In this document: piece after piece, positions 1 through 41,561 of the stretch
Position numbering within the stretch: position 1 is the stretch's first letter
Layout of the letters: every line of letters begins with the position of its first letter
Origin: a virus
DNA length: 44,861 nucleotides
Reading direction: 5' to 3' (one strand)
IMG/VR virus record: IMGVR_UViG_3300036832_000955
Coordinates: 1 to 44,861 of that record
Made by a program: the position numbers and the translations under genes
Notes under the pieces: model-generated
The model's input: the letters and a program-made list of their open reading frames with translations, nothing else
Databases searched by the model: none
Told to the model about the DNA's origin: nothing

Positions 1-115
1 GTGTACGCAAAGCGTAGAAACCGGCTGTCACACATTTTGTTGCAACCCTGAGGAACCGAGCGATGTCCATCTACGAACGCACTTCCCCGCCGAGCCCCTA
101 CTGGTACATCCGCTT
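1..115. repeat. Terminal direct repeat, left copy (circular-assembly overlap)
   Basis: Bases 1-115 are identical to 44747-44861. The repeat begins in the integrase promoter spacer and runs into the integrase gene. An exact repeat that breaks a gene at the contig end is typical of a circular assembly written with a k-mer-sized overlap, so the real unit is probably 44,746 bp. A true terminal redundancy cannot be excluded, but it would be odd for it to split int. Confidence 0.93.
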
Positions 116-1319
116 TTCGTGGAAGGGCGAGACCGTCAACCAGAGCAGCCAAGTCCTCATCGGCAAGACGGCGGCCGAGCGCAAGGCGTCGACGGCCGAC
201 GCCGAGGCCATCGAGGTCAAGCTCCGCGCCGGCATCACCGCCCGTCAGAAGGGCGGCTTCACCAGCGGCATGACCTTGGGCGATGCCTGCACCCGGTACC
301 ACGACGACGTGCTGATGATCAGCCCTCCGGTGCTGAACGCCATCGAGCGCGGCGAAGACCCGGCCAAGATTTCCGTCGTCCGCAATTTCATCTCGATGGG
401 CGACCGCCTGTGCGACGCCTTCGGCGAGACCCGCGTGCTGGACGACATCACCGACCTGATGATCGTGGAGCAGCGCGACCGCATGCTGAAGACCGGCCGC
501 CGGGTCGCCACCAAGGGCGTGGCCGACGGCACCAAGACGGAGCTGCGCGGCCAGGGTCTGTCGGTCGGCTCGGTCAACGCCTACCTGCGCCTGCTGTCGT
601 CGATCCTGGGCTACGCTCACAAGGACTGGAAGACGCTGGCCGTCCGCCCCAACGTGCAATGGTTCGGCAAGGGCAAGGCGCCGAAGGTCAAGAAGGCCAA
701 GTGCCTGAGCGACGATCAGGTCGACCAGTTACTGGCTGCCGCCCGCGCCTACAACGGCGCTGGCGCCCACTGCGAGCGGGCGCTGCTGTTCCTGTTCAAC
801 ACGGGCGCGCGCAGGACCGAGGCGTTCGCCCTGACGTGGCCCCGCATCGACCTCGCCTCCAATGGCCCGGCGCACGTTCACTTCATCGACCAGACCAAGC
901 GCGACAAGGACCGCTTCGTGCAAATCCCCGAGGGGCTGCGCGCGATGCTGCAGCAGATGAAGGCCGAGCAGATCAAGGGCGGCTACAAGGGCGACAAGGT
1001 CTTCGCCTACCGTCACCCGCGCAACAACAGCTGGGTCGAGCCCAAGGGTCTGGAGAGCCAGCTCGACGCGATCCGCAAGGCGGCGGGCGTGCCGAAGTTC
1101 ACGCAGCACATCGCCCGTCATACCTTCGCCAGCCGCGTGCTGCGCCATGGCAAGGGCGCCCGCCTGCAGCACGTCAAGGAGCTGCTCGGCCACGAGGACA
1201 TCAAGACCACGCAAATCTACGCCAGCTACGAGCAGAAGGACCTCGACGCCGTCGTGTCGTTCCTCGACGCCAAGTGGAAGGCGCCTAGCGATGCCGCCGC
1301 TTCGCCAGCAGCCGACTAA
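63..1319 (+). CDS. int: Tyrosine-family site-specific integrase
   Basis: A 418-residue phage integrase that would recombine attP with a host attB. The N-terminal part (about 1-65) is the arm-binding type beginning SPYWYIRFSW, residues 66-200 are the SAM-like core-binding domain, and 215-405 is the catalytic domain. The expected catalytic set is visible: R250 in TGARRTEAF, K279, H349 and R352 in QHIARHTFASR, H377 in LLGHEDIKTTQ and the nucleophile Y386 in IYASYEQ. The ATG at 63 has TGAGGAA 7 bases upstream. Its promoter lies across the contig join (44738-44766). The end overlaps the convergent HTH gene by 35 bases, an arrangement typical of int/xis pairs. Function is secure; the att site is not known. 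Confidence 0.96.
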   Translation: MSIYERTSPPSPYWYIRFSWKGETVNQSSQVLIGKTAAERKASTADAEAIEVKLRAGITARQKGGFTSGMTLGDACTRYHDDVLMISPPVLNAIERGEDPAKISVVRNFISMGDRLCDAFGETRVLDDITDLMIVEQRDRMLKTGRRVATKGVADGTKTELRGQGLSVGSVNAYLRLLSSILGYAHKDWKTLAVRPNVQWFGKGKAPKVKKAKCLSDDQVDQLLAAARAYNGAGAHCERALLFLFNTGARRTEAFALTWPRIDLASNGPAHVHFIDQTKRDKDRFVQIPEGLRAMLQQMKAEQIKGGYKGDKVFAYRHPRNNSWVEPKGLESQLDAIRKAAGVPKFTQHIARHTFASRVLRHGKGARLQHVKELLGHEDIKTTQIYASYEQKDLDAVVSFLDAKWKAPSDAAASPAAD

Positions 1320-1545
1320 ACGACTTGCCATCGGACACGACCAGGGGCGGCCCACCAGGGCCGCCCCTTTTGCGTTGCCCTGGCGTCGTGCTGAACCGCG
1401 CCATGTACTCATCGAGGGTGACCCGCGAGTAGCGTGGGCTGTTGCCCAGCACGGTGCGCGGCAGGCCCAGGCGGTTGAGCTGGCGCACCGACACCCGCAG
1501 GTAGTCGGCCGCCTCCAGGCGGGTCATCCACTCCACGTCATCCAT
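1285..1545 (-). CDS. Excisionase-like winged-helix DNA-binding protein
   Basis: An 86-residue protein. Residues 5-52 (WMTRLEAADYLRVSVRQL, then a Y-x-R-V-T-L-D-E-Y segment) match the HTH_17/MerR-like fold used by phage excisionases and AlpA-type regulators. The C-terminal third is basic and low in complexity (GQRKRGGPGGPP). It lies convergent to int, overlapping its 3' end by 35 bases, and is the last gene of the minus-strand cluster. Position and fold suggest the recombination directionality factor, but a plain regulator is possible. Its start overlaps the preceding gene remnant by 22 bases. Confidence 0.75.
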   Translation of the reverse strand: MDDVEWMTRLEAADYLRVSVRQLNRLGLPRTVLGNSPRYSRVTLDEYMARFSTTPGQRKRGGPGGPPLVVSDGKSFSRLLAKRRHR

Positions 1546-1724
1546 CCTTGGGCTGTAGCGTGTAGACGGGCGTCTCGCGACCGTGGCTCTTCAGGTCGCG
1601 CATGTGTTGCGAAGGCACGCGGGTACCAGTCGCCGGCATTGCGCAGCACCCGCTCTAAGGCTTCGTCGCGCAGCGTCTCGGCGGTGACGAACATATCCAT
1701 CTGGGCCGGGCCGGGCTTAGGCAT
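1524..1724 (-). pseudogene. Probable remnant of a small phage protein (internal deletion or frameshift)
   Basis: The open frame gives 66 residues starting MPKPGPAQMDMF, with a start overlapping the upstream stop by 8 bases. After ALERVLRNAGDWYPRAFA the composition turns unnatural (THARPEEPRSRDARLHATAQG). The next frame over the same bases reads TRVPSQHMRDLKSHGRETPV and ends in VYTLQPKDG directly at the following gene. That resembles the usual C-terminus of small phage HTH proteins that finish SHGRE-x-x-VY. I infer that an N-terminal and a C-terminal piece have been joined out of frame with the middle lost. The alternative is that both frames are coincidental and this is simply a short hypothetical protein. 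Confidence 0.5.
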
Positions 1725-2202: not shown

Positions 2203-2600
2203 GCATCCTCCTTCAAGGTGATATTGCGCACGGCGCACCACGCCGCTTGGTAGTCGAGCAGATCGCTCATGTCGGTTTTCGAAAGGTCGCGACTGTGTTT
2301 CATCAGCGACACGCGCTCGCCCTCGATGCCGAGCAGTAGGTGCATCGGGTGTTGTTTGATGACGTGCCAGCCCGACAGCAGCAGGTCGTGCCAGCCTTGC
2401 TTGTCGTGGCGCATGCCGCCCCAGGTGTAGGTTGTCTTCGCGATCTCGCCACACGCCGCCCAGAACCGGCTCGACTGATCGAGGGTGCGCGGCGGCTCGC
2501 CGATCCTGACGAGCCAGCCCTCAGGCGCCGACTGCACGAGCTGGCAGGCGACCGCCCTGGTGTGGTCGCCCATCAGCCGGATGGTGGCGCCGTCTGGCAT
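2199..2600 (-). CDS. ninB: NinB-like recombination protein
   Basis: A 133-residue protein of the lambda NinB (Orf) family, which in lambda helps RecF/RecO/RecR-type functions load recombinase on SSB-coated DNA. The family pattern is visible: SSRFWAACGEIAKTTYTWGG, then DKQGWHDLLLSGW, then GIEGERVSLMKHSRDLSKTD and a helical DLLDYQAAWCA. I chose the ATG at 2600, which overlaps the previous stop as TGATG; a GTG at 2603 is also possible. Its neighbours are an exonuclease and an uncharacterised protein, giving a compact phage recombination module. Confidence 0.85.
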   Translation of the reverse strand: MPDGATIRLMGDHTRAVACQLVQSAPEGWLVRIGEPPRTLDQSSRFWAACGEIAKTTYTWGGMRHDKQGWHDLLLSGWHVIKQHPMHLLLGIEGERVSLMKHSRDLSKTDMSDLLDYQAAWCAVRNITLKEDA

Positions 2601-3160: not shown

Positions 3161-3955
3161 TCACTCCACAGCATGCAGGGGTTGATGGTTGCGCTCGCCC
3201 GGCAGGACGCGCGCGGCCTTGGCAGCCCGCACGGCCTCGGCCATGGGCGGGCTGAAGTGAAAATCCGTGTAGTCGGGGGCGAACATGCTGAGCGCGTCGT
3301 GGGCGCCGTCGACCCTGGAGAGGAACGAGCGCACCGCCTGGGCGGTCTCGATCAGCCGGTCCCAGCCCTCGGCCGCCATGCTGGCGGTGACCTCGTAGCG
3401 GGTCCATTTCTTGTTGGTGACGTAGGTCAGGCTGAACGGCTTGCCGCTGCACATGGCATAGAAGGCCACCTGCTCGACGTGGTCGGGCGTCGGCGAGCTG
3501 GGCATGCGCCACGTGGTCTTGAGGTCGGTGCCGTGGTCAGGGAAAACCCAGTCGGCGAAGCCGAGCAGGGGCACGCTGATGCCGGGCAGCGTCAGCTCCA
3601 TGCGGGTCTGCCGGGTGAGCGGCACCGGCATGCTGGCGAAGGCGAGGGCGGCTTGGTCGAGGAACGCGTCGAGCGCGTCACTCTCCTTGGCGACGTTGGG
3701 CTCGATCAGGCCTTGCGCGAGGTCGTCCCATTTCTGGCGCATCGCCGCCCTGGCGGCCTCGATGCCCAGGTTGAACAACAGCCGGTCGACGCCGGCCTCG
3801 ACCGCCTGACCACGCCACGCGCCGGGGCCGACCTCGTCGGTGGCGCGCAGCAGATACTTGCCGATCCAGACCGACGGCGCGTCACGCCAGAGGCGCAGCG
3901 ACGACGGGGAGAGATGGGTGATGCCGTGCCGTTCAAACGGGTCGCTGGTTGCCAT
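3161..3955 (-). CDS. PD-(D/E)XK exonuclease (RecB/Cas4-like)
   Basis: A 264-residue nuclease of the PD-(D/E)XK superfamily, likely the 5'-3' exonuclease of the phage recombination system. The N-terminal ITHLSPSSLRLWRDAPSVWI is the usual opening of RecB-like phage exonucleases. The active-site strands are visible as GFADWVFPDHGTDLKTTWR: an aspartate, then D-L-K, at about residues 133-147. A conserved helix with H-V-E-Q-V-A-F-Y-A follows at 159-167. The start ATG at 3955 has a strong GGAGGTAACG site. It follows the small gene 3933-4151 with a 23-base overlap. Confidence 0.85.
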   Translation of the reverse strand: MATSDPFERHGITHLSPSSLRLWRDAPSVWIGKYLLRATDEVGPGAWRGQAVEAGVDRLLFNLGIEAARAAMRQKWDDLAQGLIEPNVAKESDALDAFLDQAALAFASMPVPLTRQTRMELTLPGISVPLLGFADWVFPDHGTDLKTTWRMPSSPTPDHVEQVAFYAMCSGKPFSLTYVTNKKWTRYEVTASMAAEGWDRLIETAQAVRSFLSRVDGAHDALSMFAPDYTDFHFSPPMAEAVRAAKAARVLPGERNHQPLHAVE

Positions 3956-4151
3956 CGTTACCTCCGGTGGGTTGCTCCAGGGAGGTATTGGCCGCGTCTT
4001 CCGCCGCGTGCTGCTGTGCAGCGGCGTCCAGGGTGCGCTTCAGGTCGGCAACCGCTTGAGCCAGACCCTCGACATCCTCTCCTTGCGAGAGCAGGCCGGC
4101 GAAGATGCGGCGAAAGATTGCGAGAAGCGCAGCGTGTTCAGCGCGGGTCAA
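3933..4151 (-). CDS. Small hypothetical helical protein
   Basis: A 72-residue protein. The frame is open further upstream, but I chose the TTG at 4151 because GGGAGGA lies 6 bases before it and the product then begins MTRAEHAALLAIFRRIFAGL, a natural amphipathic helix. An upstream TTG at 4232 lies in the terminator hairpin and is unlikely. It is the first gene after the repressor terminator and overlaps the exonuclease start. The function is unknown. Confidence 0.7.
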   Translation of the reverse strand: MTRAEHAALLAIFRRIFAGLLSQGEDVEGLAQAVADLKRTLDAAAQQHAAEDAANTSLEQPTGGNDGNQRPV

Positions 4152-4226
4152 ATTCGGTCCTCCCGAATGCAGTGCGCAAACGGTAAACCGATCAACCAAA
4201 ATTTCAGTGAAGATCGTACAAAATTT

Positions 4227-4258
4227 CCCCAACCCACATTCCCAGGTGTGGGTTGGGG
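4227..4258 (-). terminator. Hairpin terminator after the repressor gene
   Basis: A perfect 12-bp inverted repeat, CCCCAACCCACA and TGTGGGTTGGGG around an 8-base loop. Read on the minus strand it is followed by AAATTTTG. It stands 12 bases past the repressor stop and before the recombination genes, so it could end most repressor transcripts or act as a leaky attenuator. The weak U-tract makes it moderate. Confidence 0.7.
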
Positions 4259-4269: not shown

Positions 4270-4965
4270 TTACCTTAGGACTTCATCCCAGGTCAGGACG
4301 CGGTACATGCCCGAGACCGCCTTGGCGTCGATCTCGGTATCGCGCCTGGGGTTGTGCTGGCGCAGGCAGACCTTGCCGGTCTTTTGGTTGTCCACAAGCT
4401 GGCGCACCATCACCGGCTTTTTTTCCTCGTCGTCGTGGAGGTAGATGACGACGTAGTCCCCAGCCTTTGGTGGTCGTGCTTTTTCGAACAGCACGAGGTC
4501 GCCAGCCTCGCGCCAGGGCACCATTTTCGACCCGTGCTGGTACACGCCAGCGATGTCGGTGCGCCCTTCGAACGCCGGCAGCTGCCGGGCGATGCGCAGG
4601 GTCTCGCCGGTCAGCAGGCTGTCGCAGCAGGGTTTCGTCACGGGCGTGGTGCCCAGCACCCGGATCACGTCGAGGATCGCCGACATGCCGCTGGTGTTCG
4701 CGCCGTGGCTGATGAAGGCACCCTTGGGCAGGATGCCCTTGGTCGGCAGCACCCGCTGCTGAGCGGGTAACCGCTGCAGCAGCTCCTCGGTCGACCAGCC
4801 GAGAAATTCGGCGGCCGGTGCGATCTCGTGAGGCTGTATCCCCCGTCGACCCCCGATCATTTCGTAGACACGCGGCGGGGCGATATTCAGTTGCTCCGCC
4901 AGCGCGGCAGGCGTCCTCCCAAGTTTCCTCAGTCGAGCCTTTAACCACGGCATTTTAGGCTTCAT
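4270..4965 (-). CDS. S24/LexA-fold phage repressor (CI-like)
   Basis: A 231-residue repressor with an N-terminal HTH (about 6-58, TPAALAEQLNIAPPRVYEMI) and a C-terminal S24 fold (about 120-230, GVYQHGSKMVPWREAGDLVL then KAGDYVVIYL). The ATG at 4965 follows GAAGGAAGGTGAAT. S146 is a possible nucleophile, but the sequence reads GSKM rather than GDSM. The position of the general-base lysine (VKRL in LexA) is VRQL here, with R188. Self-cleavage may therefore be lost. It is divergent from a Cro-like gene, the classic immunity switch. An operator-like 13-mer (5006-5018) lies 41 bases upstream of the start. Confidence 0.88.
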   Translation of the reverse strand: MKPKMPWLKARLRKLGRTPAALAEQLNIAPPRVYEMIGGRRGIQPHEIAPAAEFLGWSTEELLQRLPAQQRVLPTKGILPKGAFISHGANTSGMSAILDVIRVLGTTPVTKPCCDSLLTGETLRIARQLPAFEGRTDIAGVYQHGSKMVPWREAGDLVLFEKARPPKAGDYVVIYLHDDEEKKPVMVRQLVDNQKTGKVCLRQHNPRRDTEIDAKAVSGMYRVLTWDEVLR

Positions 4966-5171
4966 CAATTCACCTTCCTTCCTCACACCGCGACACTTTA
5001 GCCGATACCGATTGCGTATCGCAATGCCGCTCTGCGGAGCATGCGAACTACAACTTATGGGGCCGGGCAATCAGCGCGCCAGAACCTATTGGGTTGCATT
5101 TTTTTCTGTGTGTAAATTTTACGAAACGAGTAACGTCACGGACTTGTAAGCATTCGCTAAGGGGCAATCGA
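4966..5171. promoter_or_regulatory. Divergent immunity control region between repressor and Cro-like gene
   Basis: A 206-base AT-richer gap between divergent genes, expected to hold PRM- and PR-like promoters. Visible elements: the palindrome ATTGCG-TAT-CGCAAT (5011-5025); overlapping it, TACCGATTGCGTA (5006-5018), a minus-strand member of the dispersed 13-mer family; CCGC-TCT-GCGG (5027-5037); and GTAAATTTTAC (5112-5122) next to a T-run (5098-5105). I cannot place the promoters with confidence. Confidence 0.75.
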
Positions 5172-5426
5172 ATGCAGCGTCCAGTGGATTTTGAGAAGGC
5201 GGTCGAAGCGTACGGAACCTATACCGGCCTCGCCCGCCGACTGAAGGTCCCGATCACCACCGTCCACGGCTGGGCACGGCGCAGCAAGCTGCCCGACTGG
5301 CGCGCCAAGCAGATCGCCGTCGTCGCCAAGCGCGACCGCAAGGACGTTTTCAAAACCAAAAAACAGATTGCCGCCGAAGCTGTTGCGGCGAAAGCCGCTG
5401 CCAAGAAAAAGCGGAAGGCGAGTTGA
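5172..5426 (+). CDS. Cro-like HTH regulator
   Basis: An 84-residue protein. Residues 5-45 (FEKAVEAYGTYTGLARRLKV then PITTVHGWARR) form a Cro/YdaS-type HTH that pairs with the divergent repressor. The tail after residue 55 is very rich in lysine and alanine, which may bind DNA non-specifically. I chose the ATG at 5172 with AAGGGG upstream rather than more distal starts, because the HTH begins directly after it. It probably shuts down the repressor and starts the early plus-strand operon. Confidence 0.8.
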   Translation: MQRPVDFEKAVEAYGTYTGLARRLKVPITTVHGWARRSKLPDWRAKQIAVVAKRDRKDVFKTKKQIAAEAVAAKAAAKKKRKAS

Positions 5427-6552: not shown

Positions 6553-6727
6553 CCGGTGTTTGTCTGTACTGATCGAGGGCGGCCATGCGCGATGGCACTG
6601 TTGGCACTGCGGCGCGAAGGGTGGAGTGGGAGATGGACGAGGCGCACGGCCTCGCCCTAGAGCAGCGCGGGCTCAGCGTCGAGCTGGCAGTGAGGCATGG
6701 CTGGCGACCCTGCAGCGGCCCTACTGA
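6443..6727 (+). CDS. Primase zinc-ribbon protein (split from the primase-helicase)
   Basis: A 94-residue product starting MDVMDELRHLGIVVRALPGN. It carries a zinc ribbon: CPWC near residue 24 and WHCWHCGAKGG near 52-60, the template-recognition module at the N-terminus of T7 gp4-type primases. The ATG at 6443 has GGGAGG 6 bases upstream. After the ribbon this frame becomes an arginine/alanine-rich shadow, while the TOPRIM-helicase continues one frame over, overlapping by 95 bases. The ribbon is therefore a separate polypeptide, unless a frameshift joins the two. Confidence 0.75.
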   Translation: MDVMDELRHLGIVVRALPGNQKTVCPWCSSERHKKFDRCLSVLIEGGHARWHCWHCGAKGGVGDGRGARPRPRAARAQRRAGSEAWLATLQRPY

Positions 6728-8060
6728 CGGGCTGTGGATCGCCATCCCGATCATCGACAAGGGCAAGCGCGTCGGCACCAAGTACCGCACCATCACCGGG
6801 GAGAAGCGGTTCTCCCAGGACGCCGGCACGCCGCAAATTTTCTGGAACGTCGACTGCCTGCGCGACCCATCGCTGGCCGGCTTTCCGCTGATCATCACCG
6901 AGGGCGAGATGGATGCCCTGGCGGCGCTGCAGTGTGGTTTCCCCAAGGTGGTGTCGGTGCCGGGCGGCGCGCCCGAGCGCGACGCCCACGAGGGCATGCG
7001 CTGGAATTTCCTGACCCACGCCCATGCCGAGCTGCGCGGCGAGCGCACGGTCATCCTGGCGGTCGACAATGACCGCAATGGCGATGTGCTCCAGGCGGGG
7101 CTGGCGCGCCGCCTGGGCAAGTCACGCTGTCAGGTGCTGGAGTACCCGACCGGCAAAGACCTCAACGACGTGCTGCGCGACCACGGCGCCGACGCGGTGC
7201 GCACGACCATCGCCCAGGCGCACTACCTCCCGGTGCCGGGGCTGGTGCGGCTGATCGAGGCGAAGGAGGCGCCGCTGCGCCGGGCGCTCGACAGCTGCAT
7301 CCCCGGCCTGGAGCCACATCTGCGCGTGCGGCGCGGCGATCTCATCGTGGTCACTGGCCCCCCAGGCCACGGCAAGAGTTCGTTCGTGAACAATCTGGTG
7401 TGCAACATGGCATGGCACTGGGCGACCACGGCGGTGATCTGCTCGCTGGAGCAGCCGGTGGTGCCCGACCTGCGCCGCGTCTTCCGCAGCTTCCGCGCCG
7501 AGTGCCTGGAAAAATTCATGAGCGAAGACCAGCAGCGGCAGGCGGACGACTGGATCAACCAGAATTTCCTGTTCGTTGAGCCAGATGAGGATGAGGACAC
7601 CACGCTCGACTGGATGCTGGAACGGTTCGCCGTGGCGGCGCACCGCCATGGCGCCACGGTCTGCGTCATCGACCCGTGGAACGAAGTGTCGACCAGCGAC
7701 AAACCGGACGAGTGGACGGTCGAGCAGTTCGTCAGCCAGTCGCTGCGCGCCATCAAGCGGTTCGCCCGCAAGCACGACGTGACCATGATCGTGGTGGCGC
7801 ACCCGCGCAAGATGAGCCGCGACAAGAGCGGGAAGATGCCGAAGCCTTCGCTGTACGACATTGCCGATAGCGCAGCGTGGTTCAACCGGGCCGACCTGGG
7901 CGTGGTGGTCTATCGGCCCGATCTGCTGAACGAAAGCCTGACAGAAATTTCCGTGGAGAAAAGTAGAAACTTTTACGTTTTGGGTATTCCTGGCATAGTC
8001 ACGCTGCAGTGGCAGCCCGAGGTGTCGCGCTTTATCAAGCCTTGGCACTCTCCCATCTGA
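6633..8060 (+). CDS. TOPRIM primase - DnaB/gp4-type helicase
   Basis: A 475-residue replicative primase-helicase of the T7 gp4/DnaB class without its zinc ribbon. Domains: primase core 1-200 with LERGLS-type helix, TEGEMDALAAL (E90) and AVDNDRNGD (D145, D147); helicase 215-475 with Walker A GPPGHGKSS (242-250), Walker B VCVIDPW (D347) and IVVAHPRKM. I chose the ATG at 6633 with GGAG 6 bases upstream; GTG 6621 and ATG 6585 are in frame. It would unwind the fork and prime lagging strands. No phage DNA polymerase is seen, so the host polymerase is presumably used. Confidence 0.92.
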   Translation: MDEAHGLALEQRGLSVELAVRHGWRPCSGPTDGLWIAIPIIDKGKRVGTKYRTITGEKRFSQDAGTPQIFWNVDCLRDPSLAGFPLIITEGEMDALAALQCGFPKVVSVPGGAPERDAHEGMRWNFLTHAHAELRGERTVILAVDNDRNGDVLQAGLARRLGKSRCQVLEYPTGKDLNDVLRDHGADAVRTTIAQAHYLPVPGLVRLIEAKEAPLRRALDSCIPGLEPHLRVRRGDLIVVTGPPGHGKSSFVNNLVCNMAWHWATTAVICSLEQPVVPDLRRVFRSFRAECLEKFMSEDQQRQADDWINQNFLFVEPDEDEDTTLDWMLERFAVAAHRHGATVCVIDPWNEVSTSDKPDEWTVEQFVSQSLRAIKRFARKHDVTMIVVAHPRKMSRDKSGKMPKPSLYDIADSAAWFNRADLGVVVYRPDLLNESLTEISVEKSRNFYVLGIPGIVTLQWQPEVSRFIKPWHSPI

Positions 8061-10944: not shown

Positions 10945-11243
10945 TCGATCAGCGCCATGACATGCGCGACGGCGCGCTCGTGCATGTCGATGGCCTCCTC
11001 CCAGGTGCCGCAGCGTTCCTGATATTCGGCGCCGCCGAAGATCATGGTCTCAAACAGGATGGGCAGCTCGCCAAAGAGATTGTGGTCGACGCCGAGGAAG
11101 ACGGTGCTGATCACATAGCGGCCGAGCTGCTCGACGGCGACGATGCGGTCGCGGCTGGCGAACATCTCGCCCCATTCCTCGATGGTCTCGACCGGCACGG
11201 CGAGGCGCCCGCGCAGGACGTACAGGCCGAGCGGTCGTGTCAC
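10938..11243 (-). CDS. Conserved phage hypothetical protein
   Basis: 101 residues starting at a GTG (11243) that overlaps the SLOG stop as GTGA. The second half, VISTVFLGVDHNLFGELPIL then FETMIFGG and a TWEEAIDMHERAV helix, is a pattern widely seen in phage proteins of unknown function. It is coupled to the SLOG gene, which suggests a joint role. The open frame extends further upstream but only as a shadow of the SLOG gene. Confidence 0.78.
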   Translation of the reverse strand: MTRPLGLYVLRGRLAVPVETIEEWGEMFASRDRIVAVEQLGRYVISTVFLGVDHNLFGELPILFETMIFGGAEYQERCGTWEEAIDMHERAVAHVMALIDQ

Positions 11244-11665
11244 GGCTCGTTGCCGTTGTGCTTGTTGCTGGCGATGTAGCCGGCGAGGATGGGGATGTTG
11301 GCTTGTTTGCACCGTGCGACCATGTCGGCGGTGCCGTTGCCGCCCGGCATGGCGACGCAGATATCGGGGTGATGGCAGTCGAGCATGCGTTGGTTGCGCC
11401 GGGGGCCGGCGGCCTTGCCGTCGCGTATCCAATTTGCATGTACGGTGATGCAGACGATGTTGTGGATTTGCGCCCAGGCCCAGGCAAATCTGTCGGCGCC
11501 TCGCGCCCCGCCCTGGATAACCTTCATGTCGATGTGGCGCTCTTTGCACTGATCGAGCAGTCCGTCGAGCGCCGTGTGAAGAATGGCTGGTTGATCGAAA
11601 CGCCGCCCGCCTGTCACGAGAACGACCATGACATCGGGCCGACTGGTTGGGACCACGAGGTCCAT
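11240..11665 (-). CDS. SLOG/DUF2493 (YspA-like) nucleotide-binding protein
   Basis: A 141-residue Rossmann-like SLOG protein. VLVTGGRRFDQPAILHTALD is the diagnostic start, then VIQGGARGADRFAWAWA with the G-G-A-x-G-A-D phosphate-binding loop, and PGGNGTADMVARCKQA near the end. SLOG domains bind or process nucleotide-derived ligands, and in phages they occur among accessory or defence-related cargo. GGGAGGAG precedes the ATG at 11665; a second methionine 13 residues in is an alternative start. A 13-mer operator-like site lies 67 bases upstream (11732-11744). Confidence 0.85.
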   Translation of the reverse strand: MDLVVPTSRPDVMVVLVTGGRRFDQPAILHTALDGLLDQCKERHIDMKVIQGGARGADRFAWAWAQIHNIVCITVHANWIRDGKAAGPRRNQRMLDCHHPDICVAMPGGNGTADMVARCKQANIPILAGYIASNKHNGNEP

Positions 11666-11731: not shown

Positions 11732-11744
11732 TACGCATATGGTA
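11732..11744. promoter_or_regulatory. Dispersed 13-mer site TACGCA-N4-GTA
   Basis: TACGCATATGGTA in the intergenic region upstream of the SLOG gene. It shares TACGCA and GTA at the same spacing with five other intergenic sites but is only partly palindromic. A nearby pair CTACT-AC-AGTAG (11695-11706) is a weaker inverted repeat. Confidence 0.55.
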
Positions 11745-12669: not shown

Positions 12670-12804
12670 TTAGCGGAGGATGTTGGCGAGGCCGAGCTGG
12701 ACGACCAGCTTGCGCGCCCACACGGCGGCGTCTTCGTCCTTGCCGCACAGCTTGTAGGCGATGGCCTTGGCGAGGCTGCGGGCGAGTTCTGCACGGTCGA
12801 TCAT
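12670..12804 (-). CDS. Small helical protein (44 residues)
   Basis: Frame MIDRAELARSLAKAIAYKLC then GKDEDAAVWARKLVVQLGLA, ending NILR. The ATG at 12804 has an excellent GGAGGAACCT site. An amphipathic helical mini-protein, first gene of the minus-strand cargo operon, opposite the regulatory gap 12805-12977. Confidence 0.68.
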   Translation of the reverse strand: MIDRAELARSLAKAIAYKLCGKDEDAAVWARKLVVQLGLANILR

Positions 12805-12977
12805 AGGTTCCTCCGGGTTGGCGTCTTCGACAGGCACACTTCTACGCCCAGGCAGACATCTGTGTCCAGCCCTAATTACGCATTCCGTAAAAACTTTCTA
12901 CGGAAACCTCGAGCCGCTGGACATAGATGAGTGCCGGGCATATATCTGTGCCCAGAGACCAACCCCTGGAGGATGCA
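12805..12977. promoter_or_regulatory. Divergent promoter region with clustered inverted repeats
   Basis: This gap separates genes leaving in both directions. It holds TACGCATTCCGTA (12877-12889), a member of the dispersed 13-mer family, inside TTACG-CATTC-CGTAA, and TTCCGTA-N9-TACGGAA (12883-12905). It also has three copies of a 12-mer: ATCTGTGTCCAG (12858-12869), its inverted form CTGGACATAGAT (12917-12928) and ATCTGTGCCCAG (12944-12955). TAAAAA (12888-12893) on plus and TAATTA on minus flank the 13-mer like -10 hexamers. Confidence 0.7.
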
Positions 12978-13448
12978 ATGGCTTTCCTTTTCGAGACCGA
13001 GACCTGCGGACGCTGCGGCGGCACGGGAAACTACAGCTACAATCGGATGCATGGCACGGTGTGCTACGGCTGCGCCGGCAACAAGGTGCGCCTGACCAAG
13101 CGCGGCAAGGCCGCCCAGGCGTGGCTGGTCGCCCAGCAGTCGGTGCCGGTGTCGGCGTTGCAGGTCGGTGACTTGGTCCGCGAGGAGGATTTCTTTGCGG
13201 GTGTGGTGGCCTGGATGCGGGTCGATGGCGTCGAGGCCGAGGGCCAGGGTTTCCGCCTGCAGCTATCTTACCAGCGCAAGCATGAGGCTGATCGCCGGCA
13301 GCTCGACATGGTGGCGCATGCGTCGGCCACCAAGCGGGTGCGCTCGGCCGACAAGACGGTGCGGCTGTGGCAGCAGATGGTGGCCCTGGCTTATCAGGCC
13401 TCGCTGACCAAGGACGGAAAGGCCCGGCGGTTGCGCCGGGCCGCCTGA
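12978..13448 (+). CDS. DnaJ-type zinc-finger protein
   Basis: A 156-residue protein; CTGGAGGATGCA precedes the ATG at 12978. Residues 10-35 hold two CxxC pairs (ETCGRCGGTGNY, then VCYGCAGNKV) of the DnaJ zinc-finger style. The rest is a basic domain (VSALQVGDLVREED, then RLQLSYQRKHEADRRQ), with a lysine/arginine-rich end. It probably binds nucleic acid or protein; no specific function is claimed. First gene of a short plus-strand operon under the 12805-12977 control region. Confidence 0.75.
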   Translation: MAFLFETETCGRCGGTGNYSYNRMHGTVCYGCAGNKVRLTKRGKAAQAWLVAQQSVPVSALQVGDLVREEDFFAGVVAWMRVDGVEAEGQGFRLQLSYQRKHEADRRQLDMVAHASATKRVRSADKTVRLWQQMVALAYQASLTKDGKARRLRRAA

Positions 13449-13487
13449 CCGGGCATACATTCCTGCCTACGCATTGAGGAGATTGAA

Positions 13488-13703
13488 GTGACCGATCTGC
13501 AGAAGTTTCAAAAGAGCTGCGCTGCCCTCTGGGGGCCGCAGTACAAGTCCGAGGCGGCGCGTCAGCTGCAGGCGGGCCTGCGCTCGGTGATGCGGTGGGA
13601 TGCCGGCGAGCGGGCGGTGCCGGCGGACAAGCTGGAGCGGCTGCAGGTGCTGCTGCTGCGGCGCCAGGGCGAGATCGCCAAGCTGCTGGAGGTGCTGCCA
13701 TGA
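13488..13703 (+). CDS. Small HTH-like regulator
   Basis: 71 residues starting at GTG (13488) with GAGGAGATTGAA upstream. The segment YKSEAARQLQAGLRSVMRWD then AGERAVPADKLERLQVLL fits a Cro/XRE-like HTH. A half-site TACGCA (13468-13473) lies 15 bases upstream. It is coupled to the next gene by ATGA overlap. Confidence 0.7.
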   Translation: MTDLQKFQKSCAALWGPQYKSEAARQLQAGLRSVMRWDAGERAVPADKLERLQVLLLRRQGEIAKLLEVLP

Positions 13704-13876
13704 GCCGCCTGGGCAAGCCTGTCGAGATCGATGAGCTGAAGGATGCGATCCTGCGCATGATGGTGCTGGAGTTCCCAGGCCGCAGCCTGGACTACCTGAC
13801 GGTCGAGGCGGCGCTCAAGCTGGTCAATTTCGAAGTGAAACAGATGGCGATGTTCGCCGCCGGAAAGGAGCCATGA
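13700..13876 (+). CDS. Small hypothetical helical protein
   Basis: 58 residues, ATGA-coupled (ATG 13700). Helical and amphipathic (DELKDAILRMMVLEFPGRSL, then VEAALKLVNFEVKQ). No family recognised. Confidence 0.68.
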   Translation: MSRLGKPVEIDELKDAILRMMVLEFPGRSLDYLTVEAALKLVNFEVKQMAMFAAGKEP

Positions 13877-13990: not shown

Positions 13991-14272
13991 ATGAACCCGC
14001 CGCATGTCGACCGTGAGATACGCTACGCCATGGCCGAGCGGCTCAATCGGTTACGACGCGCCCATGGTCTGTCGCTGGTGACGGCAGCTCGCGAGGTGGG
14101 TGTGTCGCAGCAACGCTGGAGCAATTACGAGAGCGGCACGCGGACGATCTCGCTCATGGTGATCATCAAGCTCTGTGAGGTATTCGGCGTGACGACCGAC
14201 TACCTCATTCGCGGCAGCGTGGTCGGCGTTGCCGAGGCGACCTTGAAAAGATTACGCAAGCTGCGAGACTGA
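13991..14272 (+). CDS. XRE-family HTH regulator
   Basis: A 93-residue XRE protein: residues 16-75 (LRRAHGLSLVTAAREVGVSQ, then QRWSNYESGTRTISLMVIIK) form a complete Cro/C1-type HTH, followed by DYLIRGS. It closes this plus-strand operon just before a strong terminator. It is a second transcription regulator besides the Cro-like and S24 proteins and a candidate binder of the dispersed 13-mers. Confidence 0.85.
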   Translation: MNPPHVDREIRYAMAERLNRLRRAHGLSLVTAAREVGVSQQRWSNYESGTRTISLMVIIKLCEVFGVTTDYLIRGSVVGVAEATLKRLRKLRD

Positions 14273-15435: not shown

Positions 15436-15448
15436 TACGCGTCCCGTA
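15436..15448. promoter_or_regulatory. Dispersed 13-mer site in the gap 15319-15534
   Basis: TACGCGTCCCGTA. Read on minus it is followed by TAGACT, a possible -10, with TGTACG 17 bases further up, so it may control 15094-15318. A 19-mer at 15443-15461 (CCCGTATTTGGTCGTACAG) overlaps it and matches 2844-2862 at 18 of 19 bases. I see no gene in the rest of this 216-base gap. Confidence 0.5.
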
Positions 15449-15784: not shown

Positions 15785-16261
15785 AGCCTGCCACAAGGGA
15801 CATTGTGGAAAACCCCATTTTATTTTCGGATCGCTCGTACAAATGCAGTGACAAGTCGCCTGACCCCATTGCCTGAAGCCGCCGCCACGAGCACGCTGCG
15901 CAAGATTGTTCCGCGCGCATTCTCATACTGATGAAACACCATTACTGATCTAACAAATGATTAATCCAGGCCGCCCGGAGTGGCGGCCTGAAATGGATTA
16001 GATGATCCATTCTTAAAGCTCTTTTTTTGTTCGATCAGTACTGTTGCCGCGCGCGAGGCACGCGGCTCAGCCCCCAGCATGAGCTGGCGCTCACTTCCTG
16101 GCGCAGTACGGAACCCGTACAATCCAGGCGTCTCCTGCAACCAGACAGGGCGCGTACCGTAATGCCCATATCTCGCCGTACAGAGCCTTGGCATTGCCCC
16201 GGCTGTTCCCACCTCCCCAACAATCCATCGCCCTGTACGGCGGGATACAGCCCTCCTGGCC
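15785..16261. other. Non-coding region before the late operon
   Basis: 477 bases with no convincing gene on either strand and AT-richer than the surroundings. Contents: CCACAA-N6-TTGTGG (15791-15808); a large imperfect hairpin TAATCC-AGGCCGCC / GGCGGCCT-GAAAT-GGATTA (15962-16000); a T-run (16022-16028); the perfect palindrome GTACGG-AAC-CCGTAC (16106-16120) followed by TACAAT (16118-16123), a plausible -10 for the late operon; and further CCGTACAG/CTGTACGG repeats near 16170 and 16232. Being next to terS, it may hold the packaging start or a late promoter. Confidence 0.6.
16107..16119. promoter_or_regulatory. Dispersed 13-mer site upstream of terS
   Basis: TACGGAACCCGTA, within a perfect 15-base palindrome. 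The first 15 bases (TACGGAACCCGTACA) occur again at 25228-25242. The TACAAT that follows could be a -10, giving repressor control over late genes. Confidence 0.55.
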
Positions 16262-22442: not shown

Positions 22443-25001
22443 ATGGCCGAAGCTAATGTCTATGCAGTAACCGGCAAGCCTGATCCGACCAATCTGGATG
22501 CCGACCGAGGGGCGGACAACGGTCCGACCCCGATGGACGACGAGCAGTTCGCTGCCGCCGTCAAGCAAGCCGTCGATGACGCCGTCGATTACATCGACGG
22601 ATGGGTCGCGCGCCAGCGCGCCGACGCGACCTCGTTCTATCGTGGCGACGCCTTCGGCAATGAAGAGGCCGGGCGCAGCCAGATCGTCATGACCGAAGTG
22701 CGCGATGCCGTGCTGGCGCAGATGCCGAGCCTGCTGCGGATTTTCTGCAGCTCGGAGCAGGTCGCGTCGTTCGAGCCGCGCACCGCCGACAAGGTCGAGA
22801 TGGCCGAGCAGGCGACCGATTTCATCAACTACATTTTCTACAACGACAACGACGGCTTCTCGATCCTCTACAACGCCATGAAGGATGCGCTGGTGCGCAA
22901 GTCGGGCGTGCTGAAGTGGTGGTGGGACGACAGCATCGAGATCAGCGAGTACTCGTTCACCAATCTCGATGACGGGCAGATGCAGCTGCTGCACAGCGAC
23001 CCCGACACCGACATCATCGAGCACAAGAGCCGGCCGGTGCCCGGCTGGACGCCGCCGCCACCGATGCCCCCGCCGCCGGCTATGCCGCCTCCTGGCATGC
23101 CTCCAGGCGGCCCAGGCGGGCCGCCTGGAGCGCCGCCGATGGCTGGCCCGCCGCCGGGTGCCATGCCGCCAGGAGCGCCTCCTGGCCAGGGTCTGACGGC
23201 AGGCCCGGCAACGCCGATGGCGATGTCGCCCGAGGCGATGGAGCCGCCGGCCCCGATCAAGCCACCGCGCCTGCACGACGTGCGCGTGCGGCGCCATCGC
23301 AAGAAGAACCGCGTCAAGGTCGAGTGCGTGCCGGTCGAGGAGCTGCTCGTGGCGCGCGCCGGTCGCGACATCGCGACCTCGCCGCTGGTCGCCCACCGCA
23401 GCCTCAAGACCTACAGCGACTTGGTGAAGATGGGTTACGACTTCGACCGCGTGAAGGAGATCAGCGGCCTGGGCGATACCTTCATGACCAACTACGAGGC
23501 GACCGTCCGCAACCCGGCGATCAACGCCTTCAGCCAGACCTTCGACATCAACGACGAGAGCGCCACCAAGGTCGTCTACGTCGAGAGCTACATCCTGATC
23601 GACAAGGACGGCGACGGCATCGCCGAGCGGCGCCGCGTCTGCATGGTCGGCAACACCGTGCTGCACGACGAAGTGACCAACGACGTGCCGATGGCGATCC
23701 TTTGTTGCGACCCGGAACCGCACATGATCATCGGCGGCTCAGTCGCCGATCAGACCATGGACCTGCAGATGCTGATGTCGGCGGTCGTGCGCAACATGCT
23801 CGACAGCCTCGCCCAGTCGATCCACCCGCGCACCGCCGTGGTCGAAGGCCAAGTCAATATGGATGACGTCATGAACGTCGAGACCGGCGCCATCATCCGC
23901 ATGCGCGCGCCCGGCATGGCGCAGGAGTTCAACACCACCTTCGTCGGCCGCGAGGCCATGCCGATCCTGGCGTGGCTCGATGAGGTCAAGGCGAAGCGCA
24001 CCGGCATCGTGCCGGCGTCAGCCGGCCTCGATCCCGATGTGCTGCAAAGCACGACCAAGTCGGGCGTCGATGCCACCATCCAGGGCGCCCAGGAGCGCAC
24101 CGAGATGACGGCCCGCTTGTTCGCCGAAAACGGCCTCAAACCGATGATGAAGGGCATCCTCAAGCTGGTCTGCGCCAACCAAGACCAGCCGCGCATGATG
24201 CGCCTGCGCGGCAAGTGGGTCTCGGTCGACCCGCGCATCTGGGACGCCGACATGGATGTGCTGGTGCACGTCGCCCTCGGCCGAGGCACCGATCAGGACC
24301 GGCTGATGGCGCTGAACGGCATCGCCACCAAGCAGGAAGCGGCGATGCAGAACATGGGCGGCGTGGTCAACCCGCTGGCGCCGCTCGACCGCTACCGCAA
24401 CACCCTGGCCAAGATGACCGAGCTGCTCGGCTACAAAGACGTCGACCAGTTCTTCGCGCCGGTCACGACGCAGACGGTGCAGCAAATCTCGCAGGCCGCG
24501 CAGCAGCACCAGCCGCCGCCCGACCCGAATATGATTGTCGCCCAGGCGCAGCAGGCCAAGGTGCAAGGCGAGCTGCAGATGAAGCAGCAGCAGCTCCAGC
24601 TCGACCAGGGCCGTCTGCAGTTCGACCAGCAGCAGCAACAGATCGATGCCCAGCAGAAGACCCAGCAGCAGCAGATCGACGCCCAGCTCAAGCGCGAGCA
24701 AATGCAGCTCGATGACCAGCAGAAGCGCGATCAAGCGCGCCTCGATGCGGTGATCCGGCTGCAGGGCCTGGAGCTTCAGTACGGCACGGCAGTGACGTCG
24801 AGCGACACCGAAGCCGAGCTGGAGCGCGCCCGGCTGATCAGTGAACTGGCCCAGCACAAGGAGAGCCTCGACCGCGAGGAAGAGGCGCACGTGCGCGAGC
24901 TGCACGCCGATCTGGCGAAACATCAGATGACCGTCGACCAGAAGGCCGAGGCGGCCAAGCTCGCCGCCCAGGCCAAGAAGGAGCAGCCCAGTGCTGAGTG
25001 A
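22443..25001 (+). CDS. Portal protein
   Basis: An 852-residue portal, the dodecameric DNA gate of the head, of the large podovirus type: FYRGDAFGNEEAGRSQIVMT, then CDPEPHMIIGGSVADQTMDL and TGAIIRMRAPG. An unusual proline/glycine/methionine-rich insertion occupies residues about 200-275, with PPPPMPPPPAMPPPGMPPGG. The C-terminal 170 residues are a glutamine-rich coiled coil (MKQQQLQLDQGRLQFDQQQQ and onward), comparable to the long barrel helices of P22-type portals. Flanked by head genes. Confidence 0.88.
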   Translation: MAEANVYAVTGKPDPTNLDADRGADNGPTPMDDEQFAAAVKQAVDDAVDYIDGWVARQRADATSFYRGDAFGNEEAGRSQIVMTEVRDAVLAQMPSLLRIFCSSEQVASFEPRTADKVEMAEQATDFINYIFYNDNDGFSILYNAMKDALVRKSGVLKWWWDDSIEISEYSFTNLDDGQMQLLHSDPDTDIIEHKSRPVPGWTPPPPMPPPPAMPPPGMPPGGPGGPPGAPPMAGPPPGAMPPGAPPGQGLTAGPATPMAMSPEAMEPPAPIKPPRLHDVRVRRHRKKNRVKVECVPVEELLVARAGRDIATSPLVAHRSLKTYSDLVKMGYDFDRVKEISGLGDTFMTNYEATVRNPAINAFSQTFDINDESATKVVYVESYILIDKDGDGIAERRRVCMVGNTVLHDEVTNDVPMAILCCDPEPHMIIGGSVADQTMDLQMLMSAVVRNMLDSLAQSIHPRTAVVEGQVNMDDVMNVETGAIIRMRAPGMAQEFNTTFVGREAMPILAWLDEVKAKRTGIVPASAGLDPDVLQSTTKSGVDATIQGAQERTEMTARLFAENGLKPMMKGILKLVCANQDQPRMMRLRGKWVSVDPRIWDADMDVLVHVALGRGTDQDRLMALNGIATKQEAAMQNMGGVVNPLAPLDRYRNTLAKMTELLGYKDVDQFFAPVTTQTVQQISQAAQQHQPPPDPNMIVAQAQQAKVQGELQMKQQQLQLDQGRLQFDQQQQQIDAQQKTQQQQIDAQLKREQMQLDDQQKRDQARLDAVIRLQGLELQYGTAVTSSDTEAELERARLISELAQHKESLDREEEAHVRELHADLAKHQMTVDQKAEAAKLAAQAKKEQPSAE

Positions 25002-25254
25002 CGATCAGATCGAAGAGGTGCGGGCGTTCTTCACCAGCCCGACCGGCATTGCCGTCTTCCAGCAGCTGCAGGCCACCCAGGTCGCCAGCTGGATGACGAG
25101 CCACGACACCAAGGAGCGCGAGGAGTGCTGGCGCCTGCTGCAGGCCGTCCTGCAGCTGGAGGCAGCCCTACGCGACGCCGAGGCAATGAAAAAGCTGACC
25201 CAGCGTACCCAGGATCGCCGGGCTGTTTACGGAACCCGTACAGCAGGAGTATGA
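24991..25254 (+). CDS. Small hypothetical protein between portal and scaffold
   Basis: 87 residues from GTG 24991 (AAGGAG upstream), overlapping the portal end by 11 bases. Helical (LSDDQIEEVRAFFTSPTGIA, then ECWRLLQAVLQLEAAL). Position suggests a head-assembly role. Its last codons include the 13-mer site 25228-25240. Confidence 0.75.
   Translation: MLSDDQIEEVRAFFTSPTGIAVFQQLQATQVASWMTSHDTKEREECWRLLQAVLQLEAALRDAEAMKKLTQRTQDRRAVYGTRTAGV
25228..25240. promoter_or_regulatory. Dispersed 13-mer site before the scaffold gene
   Basis: TACGGAACCCGTA, a 5-3-5 palindrome identical (with two more bases) to the terS-upstream site 16107-16121. It lies 20 bases before the scaffold start, inside the 3' end of 24991-25254. 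Confidence 0.5.
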
Positions 25255-30333: not shown

Positions 30334-30346
30334 TACGATGGTCGTA
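30334..30346. promoter_or_regulatory. Dispersed 13-mer site upstream of the tail-fibre gene
   Basis: TACGATGGTCGTA, a perfect 5-3-5 palindrome in the gap 30314-30401. TAGTAC at 30345-30350 sits where the integrase site has its -10. Confidence 0.5.
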
Positions 30347-39406: not shown

Positions 39407-41256
39407 TGGGTTATCTGGACGACGCCCTGGAGTACCTCAGGCAAAAGCCGGGTGGCCTGCTGAACGACATCCCCTACCCGTGGGACGTCGCCAGGAACGT
39501 CGGAAAGTCGCTCCTGGCGTCACCAGAGCCACGCCCAGGCTATGACGCCACGACGGCGCCGCCGCGCCTGCAGGGGCTTTATAGCGATCTGCAGCCCGAT
39601 CCTAATGCCGACTACGGCAGGATGCCGTGGGCGCCATTCGCTCGTGACCGGACGACCGGCGAGACGCGCTGGGCGATGCCGTCGTCGGTGCGCCAGGGTC
39701 TGCTTGGTGGCCTTGATCTGTTGGCCGGCACCGAGACCGGCGCGGTGACGCCGCGCGCCCTTGACACGCTGAACACGGGCAGCGCCCTGGTCGGTGGCAC
39801 GCTGTCGGCGCCTGGGGCGCTGGGCGCTGGCGGCGCCCGGCGCGCGCCCTTCCGCGTGCCTCAGGTGGCGAGAGCTGACCTCGATGTCGCGCCGGCCGGC
39901 ATCGGCCACAACATGCCGCCGGTCACCACGCCCGCGTACCTCGACGCCGAGGGCAACGCGATCAAGGGCGCCGCGTACAGCAAGGCGTCGAAGGCGGCGC
40001 TCGACCAAGTGAAGGAGGCCGGCGTTGGCGCCGGCCCGCTCGACCTCAGCGGCAACCAGCGCATCCCCGGTATCCTGCAGGAGGACATCCCGCGCTACGA
40101 TCCCAACGGCCCCCGGCGCCATGGCGTGTCGCAGGCCATGCAGGACGCGCTCGTGAGCAACGACGTGCGCCAGGGCGTCCTCGACAGCATCGACGCCGGC
40201 ACCAAGATGGGCGCCGGCAAGTGGTACCACAACAAGGCGCTCTACGACGCCTTCGTTCAGGAGCTGGGGCCCGACGAAGGGCACAAGCAATTCCAAAAAT
40301 ATATGGACTATCAGTCGGCCGCTTCGCCGCGCAGCGACGTGCCGACCAATATACGCAACGCGTCTTTCTACTACGTCAACCAGGGCCGCATCCCCGGCCC
40401 CCAGGTGGGTGGCGAGCCGGGGCTGGACTTCGTTGACCTGAGATCAAACCCCTACCCCTACGGCCATGTCGGGCAGAAGCTGCATCGACAGAACGCCGAC
40501 AAGATGGCGGCCGACCAGGGCGACTGGGGCGGCTACGATCCGCTCGAAAATCCGAAGCCGCCGAGCTATGGCACCAACCTGGGCGGCAACCTGCAGCCGG
40601 TCGCGGCCGACACGCACGCCTTCAGGAACATCGTCATGCGCACGCGCGATCCGCGCTTCCTGGCGACGCAGATTGATGAGACCTCGCCGCGCAACCCATT
40701 CGCTGAAGATGTCGACACCAGCAAGATGACGCCAGATGAGATCGCCGACCTCAGCAAGGCGCGGCGCTACGGCGAGCTGGTGATGGGCAAGGACGGCAAG
40801 CCGATGGTGAAGGACGGCAATTACAAAATCCGCTACCGGCCGCAGAAGCTCTACGACCAGGGCAAGCTGACCATGGACGACGCGGTGAACCAGCCGACGA
40901 TGTGGCGCAGCGACCCCAACGACAACGAGTACAAGGCGGTCGAGGATTTCTATGCTGAGCTGGGCAGGCAGCGTGGCCTCACGCCGGCCGAGGCTCAGTC
41001 CGCCGCCTGGGCAGGCGGCGGCGGCCTTACCGGCCTGGGCACGCCGTCGAACCGCACGTTCGGTCAGATGCACAATGAGAGATTGCTCTACACCTCGATC
41101 ATGCGCGGCGAGAACCCGAAGGAAACGCTGCGCGCCCTGATCCGTCGTGAGCGACCGCTGCTCACGACGCCTGGAGGTGGAATGCCGGCTGGGCTGCTGA
41201 GTGGTGGCGACCAGTCTCAGTCTGAGGTGACGCCGATGAGCGAGCGCAGCTACTAG
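39406..41256 (+). CDS. Large virion-associated protein of unknown activity
   Basis: 616 residues, TGATG-coupled, last gene of the late operon. A central domain (about 265-330, GAGKWYHNKALYDAFVQELG, then YMDYQSAASPRSDVPTNIRN and ASFYYVNQG) is recognisable in large phage proteins and looks like a self-contained, possibly enzymatic, unit, but I cannot name the activity. No membrane span. It may be delivered with the DNA. Confidence 0.7.
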   Translation: MGYLDDALEYLRQKPGGLLNDIPYPWDVARNVGKSLLASPEPRPGYDATTAPPRLQGLYSDLQPDPNADYGRMPWAPFARDRTTGETRWAMPSSVRQGLLGGLDLLAGTETGAVTPRALDTLNTGSALVGGTLSAPGALGAGGARRAPFRVPQVARADLDVAPAGIGHNMPPVTTPAYLDAEGNAIKGAAYSKASKAALDQVKEAGVGAGPLDLSGNQRIPGILQEDIPRYDPNGPRRHGVSQAMQDALVSNDVRQGVLDSIDAGTKMGAGKWYHNKALYDAFVQELGPDEGHKQFQKYMDYQSAASPRSDVPTNIRNASFYYVNQGRIPGPQVGGEPGLDFVDLRSNPYPYGHVGQKLHRQNADKMAADQGDWGGYDPLENPKPPSYGTNLGGNLQPVAADTHAFRNIVMRTRDPRFLATQIDETSPRNPFAEDVDTSKMTPDEIADLSKARRYGELVMGKDGKPMVKDGNYKIRYRPQKLYDQGKLTMDDAVNQPTMWRSDPNDNEYKAVEDFYAELGRQRGLTPAEAQSAAWAGGGGLTGLGTPSNRTFGQMHNERLLYTSIMRGENPKETLRALIRRERPLLTTPGGGMPAGLLSGGDQSQSEVTPMSERSY

Positions 41257-41495
41257 CTGTGCAGCGGCACGACGGTGTCGTCGTAGTCGATGGTGTGATC
41301 CTCGACCACTTCGGGGTCGCCCGAGGACAGGGCATAGACCGCCGCTAACCGCTTGCGCAGATCAGCGATCTCGCGGGCCGCATCGCGGCGGTCCTGCTCG
41401 TATTCATCGATCACCATCTGGGGCTCTTCGTTGCAGGTGCCCTGATCATGGTGGGAGCGCAGGCGGCTGAGGATGTCTTGCTTCCGGGGGGCCAC
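41253..41495 (-). CDS. Small hypothetical protein
   Basis: 80 residues from GTG 41495 with AAAGGAAT upstream. Starts MAPRKQDILSRLRSHHDQGT and contains a helix VIDEYEQDRRDAAREIADLR. Convergent with the late operon, overlapping its stop by 4 bases. Its pattern of a basic start plus one long helix is common in small phage proteins; function unknown. Confidence 0.72.
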   Translation of the reverse strand: MAPRKQDILSRLRSHHDQGTCNEEPQMVIDEYEQDRRDAAREIADLRKRLAAVYALSSGDPEVVEDHTIDYDDTVVPLHS

Positions 41496-41548
41496 GGGCC
41501 TATTCCTTTAGGGGTTGAAATTTATAACAAAACGCGCAGACTATTTAC

Positions 41549-41561
41549 TACGCACTGCGTA
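41549..41561. promoter_or_regulatory. Dispersed 13-mer site, most symmetric member
   Basis: TACGCACTGCGTA, six paired bases each side of one centre base. It lies 52 bases upstream of the start at 41613, with TTGAAA at 41514-41519 and TATTTG at 41560-41565 nearby, in an AT-rich promoter-like gap. Confidence 0.6.

Follow-up and report, generated by a model that had tools for sequence, protein, structure and literature searches.

Immunity based on dispersed operators has been worked out mainly in phage P1, phage phiC31 and the Cluster A mycobacteriophages. The repressor sites of phiC31 are inverted repeats. The C1 repressor of P1 has 22 dispersed operators, which are 17 bp long and asymmetric (PMC8546580), and for phiC31 and L5 taken together 18–30 dispersed repressor sites have been described (PMC4557955). 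The stoperators of mycobacteriophages are asymmetric, bound by monomers, oriented with transcription and mostly located away from promoters (PMC6550527, PMC4557955). Here we analyse a 44,861-nt stretch of DNA from an uncultured temperate bacteriophage, positions 1–44,861 of the IMG/VR virus record IMGVR_UViG_3300036832_000955 (hereafter the window), in which a 13-bp palindrome recurs, mostly between genes and at predicted promoters. We consider it likely that the phage's own CI-like repressor, encoded at 4270–4965 on the minus strand, uses these sites as dispersed operators, with Cro probably sharing them.

Judged by function, the closest described systems would be P1 and also phiC31 and L5. 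As in dispersed-operator systems, many near-identical sites are spread over several transcription units of the window, where they lie at predicted promoters, that of the repressor included as well as those of lytic genes. The likeness to P1 lies in a proteobacterial phage having a single repressor with many operators, which are distributed over early promoters, late-control promoters and the promoter of the repressor itself; P1 differs in being a plasmid prophage with the modulators Coi and Lxc, whereas here the sites are symmetric and 13 bp long, and a tyrosine integrase is present. Multiple repressor sites across the genome are also a feature of phiC31, but its repressor is of another family with three isoforms, its site sequence is unrelated and its host belongs to another phylum. 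L5 and Bxb1 (Cluster A) are similar in having genome-wide 13-bp sites, some of them off promoters (PMC6550527). A preliminary description of the window had likened its sites to mycobacteriophage stoperators. We find this analogy to be loose and the definition of a stoperator inapplicable: the sites described here are symmetric (6-1-6), mostly at promoters and largely intergenic and, because they are palindromic, they have no orientation.

Divergent repressor and Cro genes with operators of a shared type between them, a leftward operon with operators of its own, and a repressor that combines a helix-turn-helix (HTH) with a putative S24-like domain all recall the lambdoid CI/Cro arrangement. In lambda, however, the operators are clustered at OL and OR, whereas here a promoter has a single site, and the sites extend to the integrase, terminase and other genes. 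A further difference from the autocleaving lambda-type S24 repressor is the absence of the catalytic dyad from the S24-like domain here. We found no report of the operator or of the virus lineage in the open-access papers searched; both appear to be new, while the style of control is known from other phages.

Excess and conservation of the palindrome

The final 115 bp of the window (44747–44861) are a copy of positions 1–115, and the genome is therefore a circle or closed molecule of 44,746 bp. All ten 13-mers listed in the preliminary description were found where it had placed them. Six had been said to fit a strict form, TACGCAN4GTA, and this number stands: both strands of the window together give eight matches, which reduce to six distinct sites since the site at 41549 matches on both strands and 44750–44762 duplicates the site at 4–16 through the terminal repeat. 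In dinucleotide-shuffled genomes the strict form occurs 0.04 times on average and never more than once, and none of 100 shuffles reaches eight. The excess over chance is thus as claimed, although the earlier chance estimate of 0.2 matches is higher than the shuffled value.

To gather relatives, we used the terminase, the repressor HTH and further proteins as queries. All are virus records of one lineage, like the source genome: G002 (44 kb, closed), G003 (31 kb), G004 (17 kb), G005 (5 kb), G006 (31 kb) and G010 (24 kb); a further record, G007, overlaps G006. As far as the contigs reach, the relatives and the window have in common the capsid, terminase, helicase, nuclease, repressor and Cro, at about 45–82% protein identity. 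The window's terminase shares 67% identity with its counterparts in Sinorhizobium phage phiM5 and in one environmental phage. Among named phages, the half of the genome with the head genes has no near DNA match and the repressor has no tblastn match; searches of genome contigs with the repressor HTH and the helicase found no prophage.

The signal also emerges from a motif-free scan of every 3- and 4-mer inverted dyad in intergenic DNA. In the window, TAC-N7-GTA ranks first among 3-mer dyads (11 seen against 0.72 expected, P = 4e-10) and TACG-N5-CGTA first among 4-mer dyads (6 against 0.06, P = 9e-11). TAC-N7-GTA is also the top 3-mer dyad in the intergenic DNA of G002, G003, G004 and G006. All six relatives are rich in the motif, often in the form of the perfect palindrome TACGCA-W-TGCGTA, and show an excess of it. 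None of seven control records, which share the terminase or have a distant repressor or Cro match but lack this repressor/Cro pair, shows such an excess. A weight matrix built from the relatives alone finds 12 window sites of at least 12 bits, against 0.33 in shuffled genomes and 0.60 with column-permuted matrices. Among the checks proposed with the preliminary description, a matrix scan against shuffled genomes, made here with the relatives-only matrix, and a search for the sites in related phages come out in favour of the motif. Some of its details need revision. The architecture is a 6-1-6 palindrome, consensus TACGCA-W-TGCGTA, and not the looser 5-3-5 form; and the list of ten was incomplete, four further sites lying at 4173, 5120, 7974 and 13468.

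Promoter overlap and conserved distances

Ten of the 12 window sites are intergenic, although intergenic DNA makes up only 9.6% of the genome (P = 4e-9). It had been stated that all sites lie at gene starts or in gaps, which holds for most; the site at 25228 lies within the last codons of gene 24991–25254. Where a window gene has an upstream site, its orthologue tends to have one too (18/27 versus 5/64, Fisher P = 1.8e-8), and distances from site to gene start are similar. For integrase orthologues they are -53, -48 and -53. The repressor has its site at -47 in the window and at -70, -45 and -50 in relatives, and Cro at -46 in the window and at -47, -51 and -82 in relatives. For the SLOG-family gene the distance is -73 in the window and -66 and -62 in relatives; for the scaffold gene it is -26 in both the window and G002 and -40 in G006. 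The gap between repressor and Cro contains two sites 110–123 bp apart, one per promoter, in all five genomes that have the pair.

Intergenic sites overlap better sigma-70-like promoters than do identical 13-mers pasted at random intergenic positions (P = 1.3e-5), these promoters being predicted with an E. coli matrix that may not be that of the host. In the commonest geometry the operator fills the promoter spacer and reaches into the -10 element, which begins with the operator's last TA. This geometry is found at the integrase promoter in three genomes, namely the window (TTGACG-N17-TAGAAA), G003 and G002. A position in the spacer would suit blocking of RNA polymerase, not its activation. Excess, intergenic placement, promoter overlap, conservation and conserved distances in orthologues all support the earlier proposal that a phage regulator controls many transcription units.

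Putative operators inside coding sequence

The site at 7974–7986, TACGTTTTGGGTA (14.5 bits), lies inside the DNA primase/helicase gene (6585–8060, plus strand; PHROG primase/helicase, 8e-62; 67–73% identity among relatives), 74 bp before its end. A site is found at the same helicase codons in all five genomes compared. Because these genomes have the encoded peptide Y-x-[IL]-G in common, a coincidence of coding had to be excluded. The site is spelled with different amino acids and rare synonymous codons (GTT TTG GGT, GCA ATC GGT, TCA ATC GGT and TCA CTC GGT), and the probability of reaching such a score through synonymous choice alone is 7.5e-4 to 1.3e-2 per genome. Among 1398 aligned windows of the gene, this position averages 16.4 bits and the next best -1.1. 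A purely coding origin is rejected by the synonymous test together with this outlier status. The tests are not independent, as the genomes are related, yet one DNA pattern is produced from differing codons and residues. We regard 7974 as the best candidate for a roadblock-like site.

In the case of the site at 25228, the synonymous-codon effect is weaker (P = 0.003 in the window, 0.017 in G006 and 0.064 in G002), and G003 has no counterpart. A coding origin is rejected only in part here, because the encoded YGTR is common to the window and G006 (YATR in G002). Roadblocks to elongation could be present at one or two sites at most, 7974 and perhaps 25228.

Candidate binding proteins

The proposed operator binder, the CI-like lysogeny repressor (4270–4965, minus strand, 231 amino acids; PHROG transcriptional repressor), consists of an HTH and a putative, degenerate S24-like domain. 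Orthologues 48–59% identical to it occur in G002, G003 and G006, all genomes full of the motif, and repressor and Cro are both present in every relative that covers the locus. The HTH is clear. Its closest solved structures are HigA/GraA antitoxins, HTH proteins that bind short palindromes (PMC6987408). These differ in being antitoxins of toxin–antitoxin pairs with TTAAC-GTTAA sites; nothing suggests a toxin partner here. The S24 match falls below the Pfam cut-off. We used the AlphaFold model solely for the HTH fold because confidence is low in the C-terminal half (mean predicted local distance difference test score 60.6). In an alignment with lambda CI and LexA, which are distant, the catalytic Ser is replaced by K, A or V and the Lys by R in three S24-like orthologues. 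The Ser-Lys dyad is missing, and RecA-stimulated SOS self-cleavage is therefore unlikely as the route to prophage induction, which would probably proceed without it.

The repressors of G006 and G010 have the same HTH joined to a different C-terminal domain, and the operators of these genomes are unchanged. This combination suggests that it is the HTH that reads the sites. The swapped domain, carried by the fused repressors at L023:5690-6154 (G006) and L040:8758-9204 (G010), is also found as a separate small protein: in the window it is 58 amino acids long and encoded next to gene 13488 (13700–13876), and in G002 it lies directly downstream of the repressor (L019:7507-7725). Its role may lie in multimerisation, co-repression or antirepression, and in its stand-alone form it could act as an antirepressor or co-repressor.

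Two other proteins are possible co-binders of the sites. The Cro-like HTH protein (5172–5426, plus strand, 84 amino acids), which is the likely second binder, is conserved in G002, G003, G006 and G010 and has a weak PDB match to the Cro protein 3bd1. The second is a small HTH-like protein of 71 amino acids (13488–13703, plus strand; PHROG 3626/12690) that is conserved in motif-bearing relatives. G006 and G010 have second copies of the latter, and for one orthologue a weak match to Aca2/YdiL-like proteins was obtained (E = 0.008); a link of this family to anti-CRISPR operons is possible. The preliminary description had named the S24 repressor, the XRE protein at 13991 and the HTH protein at 42055 as potential regulators. 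The phyletic distribution favours the first and makes the other two unlikely: the sole match to 13991 in the relatives is weak (32%, in G002), and 42055 is found only in G002. G003, which is sequenced through the stretch from the tail gene to the integrase, lacks a 42055 orthologue and yet has the motif.

Individual sites and adjoining genes

The integrase-promoter operator TACGCAAAGCGTA (4–16, repeated at 44750–44762) lies within the 17-bp spacer described above, and the first gene behind it encodes the tyrosine integrase (63–1319, plus strand; Pfam Phage_integrase, 1.2e-23). In the immunity region, the repressor-promoter operator TACGCAATCGGTA (5006–5018, read on the minus strand) is located between the TTGCGA and TAAAGT of the leftward promoter, and the Cro-promoter operator is TACGAAACGAGTA (5120–5132; 15.3 bits). 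A weak site of the leftward, PL-like operon, TGCGCAAACGGTA (4173–4185; 9.7–10.2 bits), is found 21 bp upstream of gene 3933–4151 (minus strand).

At this leftward locus, beside the 3' end of the repressor gene, four relatives carry two strong operators exactly 63 bp apart (L019:7741-7816, L021:8797-8872, L023:5621-5696 and L040:8654-8729). These paired operators are the cores of longer inverted repeats, in which the flanking stem sequence varies and pairing is largely kept. In G003 and G002, one of the leftward operators is followed by a T run and resembles an intrinsic terminator. The window has at this locus only the weak site at 4173, plus a separate hairpin at about 4227–4258.

Further into the genome, operator TACGCATATGGTA (11732–11744) is upstream of the leftward SLOG/YspA-like gene 11240–11665, and TACGCATTCCGTA (12877–12889; 20.5 bits with the relatives-only matrix) lies between the divergent genes 12670–12804 (minus) and 12978–13448 (plus). 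A weaker site, TACGCATTGAGGA (13468–13480; 12.7 bits), overlaps the likely ribosome-binding site of gene 13488, whose orthologues in G002, G004 and G006 also have upstream sites. The site TACGCGTCCCGTA (15436–15448; 13.3 bits) is less certain, its position not being conserved in the relatives compared. Operator TACGCAAACGGTA (17412–17424; 16.5 bits) is between gene 17183–17368 (minus) and the terminase large subunit gene (plus); in G003 and G006, too, terL is immediately preceded by a site. Operator TACGCACTGCGTA (41549–41561; 18.9 bits) lies between the divergent genes 41253–41495 (minus) and 41613–42047 (plus), 58–60 bp from both starts, and overlaps a promoter-like site. The loose palindrome TACGATGGTCGTA (30334–30346), which precedes tail gene 30402, scores only 5.3 bits, yet a better site in G002, TACGGTCACCGTA, matches its distance from the orthologous tail gene (-61 versus -62).

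A variant form, TACGG-N3-CCGTA, occurs at ten sites in the lineage, mostly before late genes. In the window, TACGGAACCCGTA is found twice: in the gap that precedes the terminase small subunit gene (16107–16119; 15.5 bits), and in the last codons of gene 24991–25254 (25228–25240), where its centre is 26 bp before the scaffold gene. Sites of this type lie 32–41 bp before terS in G002 and G006, and one precedes the terS orthologue of G010. GG halves pair with each other 10 times against 2.5 expected, and the centre of the GG form is GC-richer (A/T fraction 0.47 versus 0.86). The GG form may be a weaker version of the same operator or may belong to a second protein.

Two other repeats were seen in relatives. 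In G006, the dyad CATA-N4-TATG occurs seven times in intergenic DNA (L023/L024) against 0.04 expected, and is possibly the site of another regulator. Short imperfect repeats of the type GACGTAGGCGTAGACGT are found around operator-like sites in G006 (L024:1200-1300, about 17200–17300 of the genome) and G010 (L040:19150-19230).

Discussion

We conclude that the motif is genuine and conserved; all the sequence tests applied, whether of excess, placement, conservation, promoter overlap or synonymous constraint, point to function. What would that function be? We infer the identity of the binding protein, its binding as a dimer, repression and the roles of individual sites as follows. The repressor HTH would target a 13-mer operator such as TACGCAATGCGTA, with a dimer placing one recognition helix into each TACG half; the invariant TAC and GTA ends, separated by one helical turn of about 10 bp, would be presented on the same face of the double helix. 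When bound in the prophage, the repressor would cover either the spacer or the -10/-35 elements at the promoters of Cro (early rightward), the leftward operon, the integrase, accessory genes and the terminase, and at its own promoter it would regulate itself. Cro would compete for the repressor's sites. The site within the helicase gene, and perhaps that before the scaffold gene, would catch transcription that has escaped. In this way one repressor protein would silence the whole virus at once.

Several points weigh against this model. The motif is accompanied just as consistently by Cro and the 13488 protein as by the repressor, so that sequence alone does not tell the three apart, and a second protein may read the GG-type subset. 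Support for the sites at 15436 and 30334 is weak. The gene calls are our own, five of the six relatives are partial contigs, and the common ancestry of the relatives means that the P values overstate independence.

How do other explanations compare? Chance or an artefact of composition is ruled out by shuffles, permuted matrices and conservation in relatives, and is opposed also by the synonymous constraint; we give it practically no weight. It is very improbable that the motif acts in RNA, as hairpin terminators or processing sites. Palindromes can pair, a longer conserved inverted repeat surrounds one leftward-region site in relatives, and a T run follows one site in G003 and G002. However, extended repeats are limited to that one locus, sites lie in promoter spacers, and many sites with mismatched halves (TACCG...GCGTA, TACTC...GCGTA) keep their position. 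We reject the hairpin explanation for most sites because a stem would be disrupted by such mismatches between the halves.

Another phage HTH protein, Cro (5172–5426) or the 13488–13703 protein, might instead be the chief reader, and hence a lytic-phase regulator, not a prophage repressor. Both proteins are in every motif-bearing relative that covers the locus, and 13488-family genes have upstream sites. The layout speaks for the repressor: sites are at the repressor and Cro promoters in all five genomes, in promoter spacers, which is the classical CI/Cro arrangement with shared operators, and of the three protein families it is the repressor HTH that is best conserved between relatives. We therefore think it unlikely that another protein is the chief reader. 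The possibility that there are two overlapping families, an early TACGCA-W-TGCGTA read by the repressor and a late TACGG-N3-CCGTA read by a late-gene regulator, would refine operator control by the repressor and is compatible with it. The excess of GG/GG pairs, their GC-rich centres and their placement before terS, scaffold and tail genes are consistent with such a division, but many sites mix half types (GC/GG, GG/TC), and only ten sites are GG/GG, several of them intragenic and one in an early gene (G003 7456). We see it as a possible refinement, though not one that we would favour.

Taking the repressor as the reader of the dispersed operators, a stronger formulation can be offered tentatively, as one that we hold to be less likely than not. 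A single non-cleavable repressor HTH would govern, through its operators, almost all transcription modules of a new lineage of temperate, podovirus-like phages, and one of these operators would be an elongation roadblock embedded in coding sequence where the replicative helicase gene ends. Between relatives, the set of operators would stay the same while the C-terminal (induction) domain is swapped, being a degenerate S24 in some members and another domain in G006 and G010 that stands alone elsewhere.

The sites described here would provide a symmetric-operator case of dispersed control across an uncultured lineage, with a constant sequence, conserved positions, one site held in place through codon choice and a varying induction domain. 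The less usual features are the codon-embedded operator and an induction domain of the repressor that is degenerate or swapped. TACGCA-W-TGCGTA would be a sequence tag for finding members of the lineage and for predicting which phage is immune to which.

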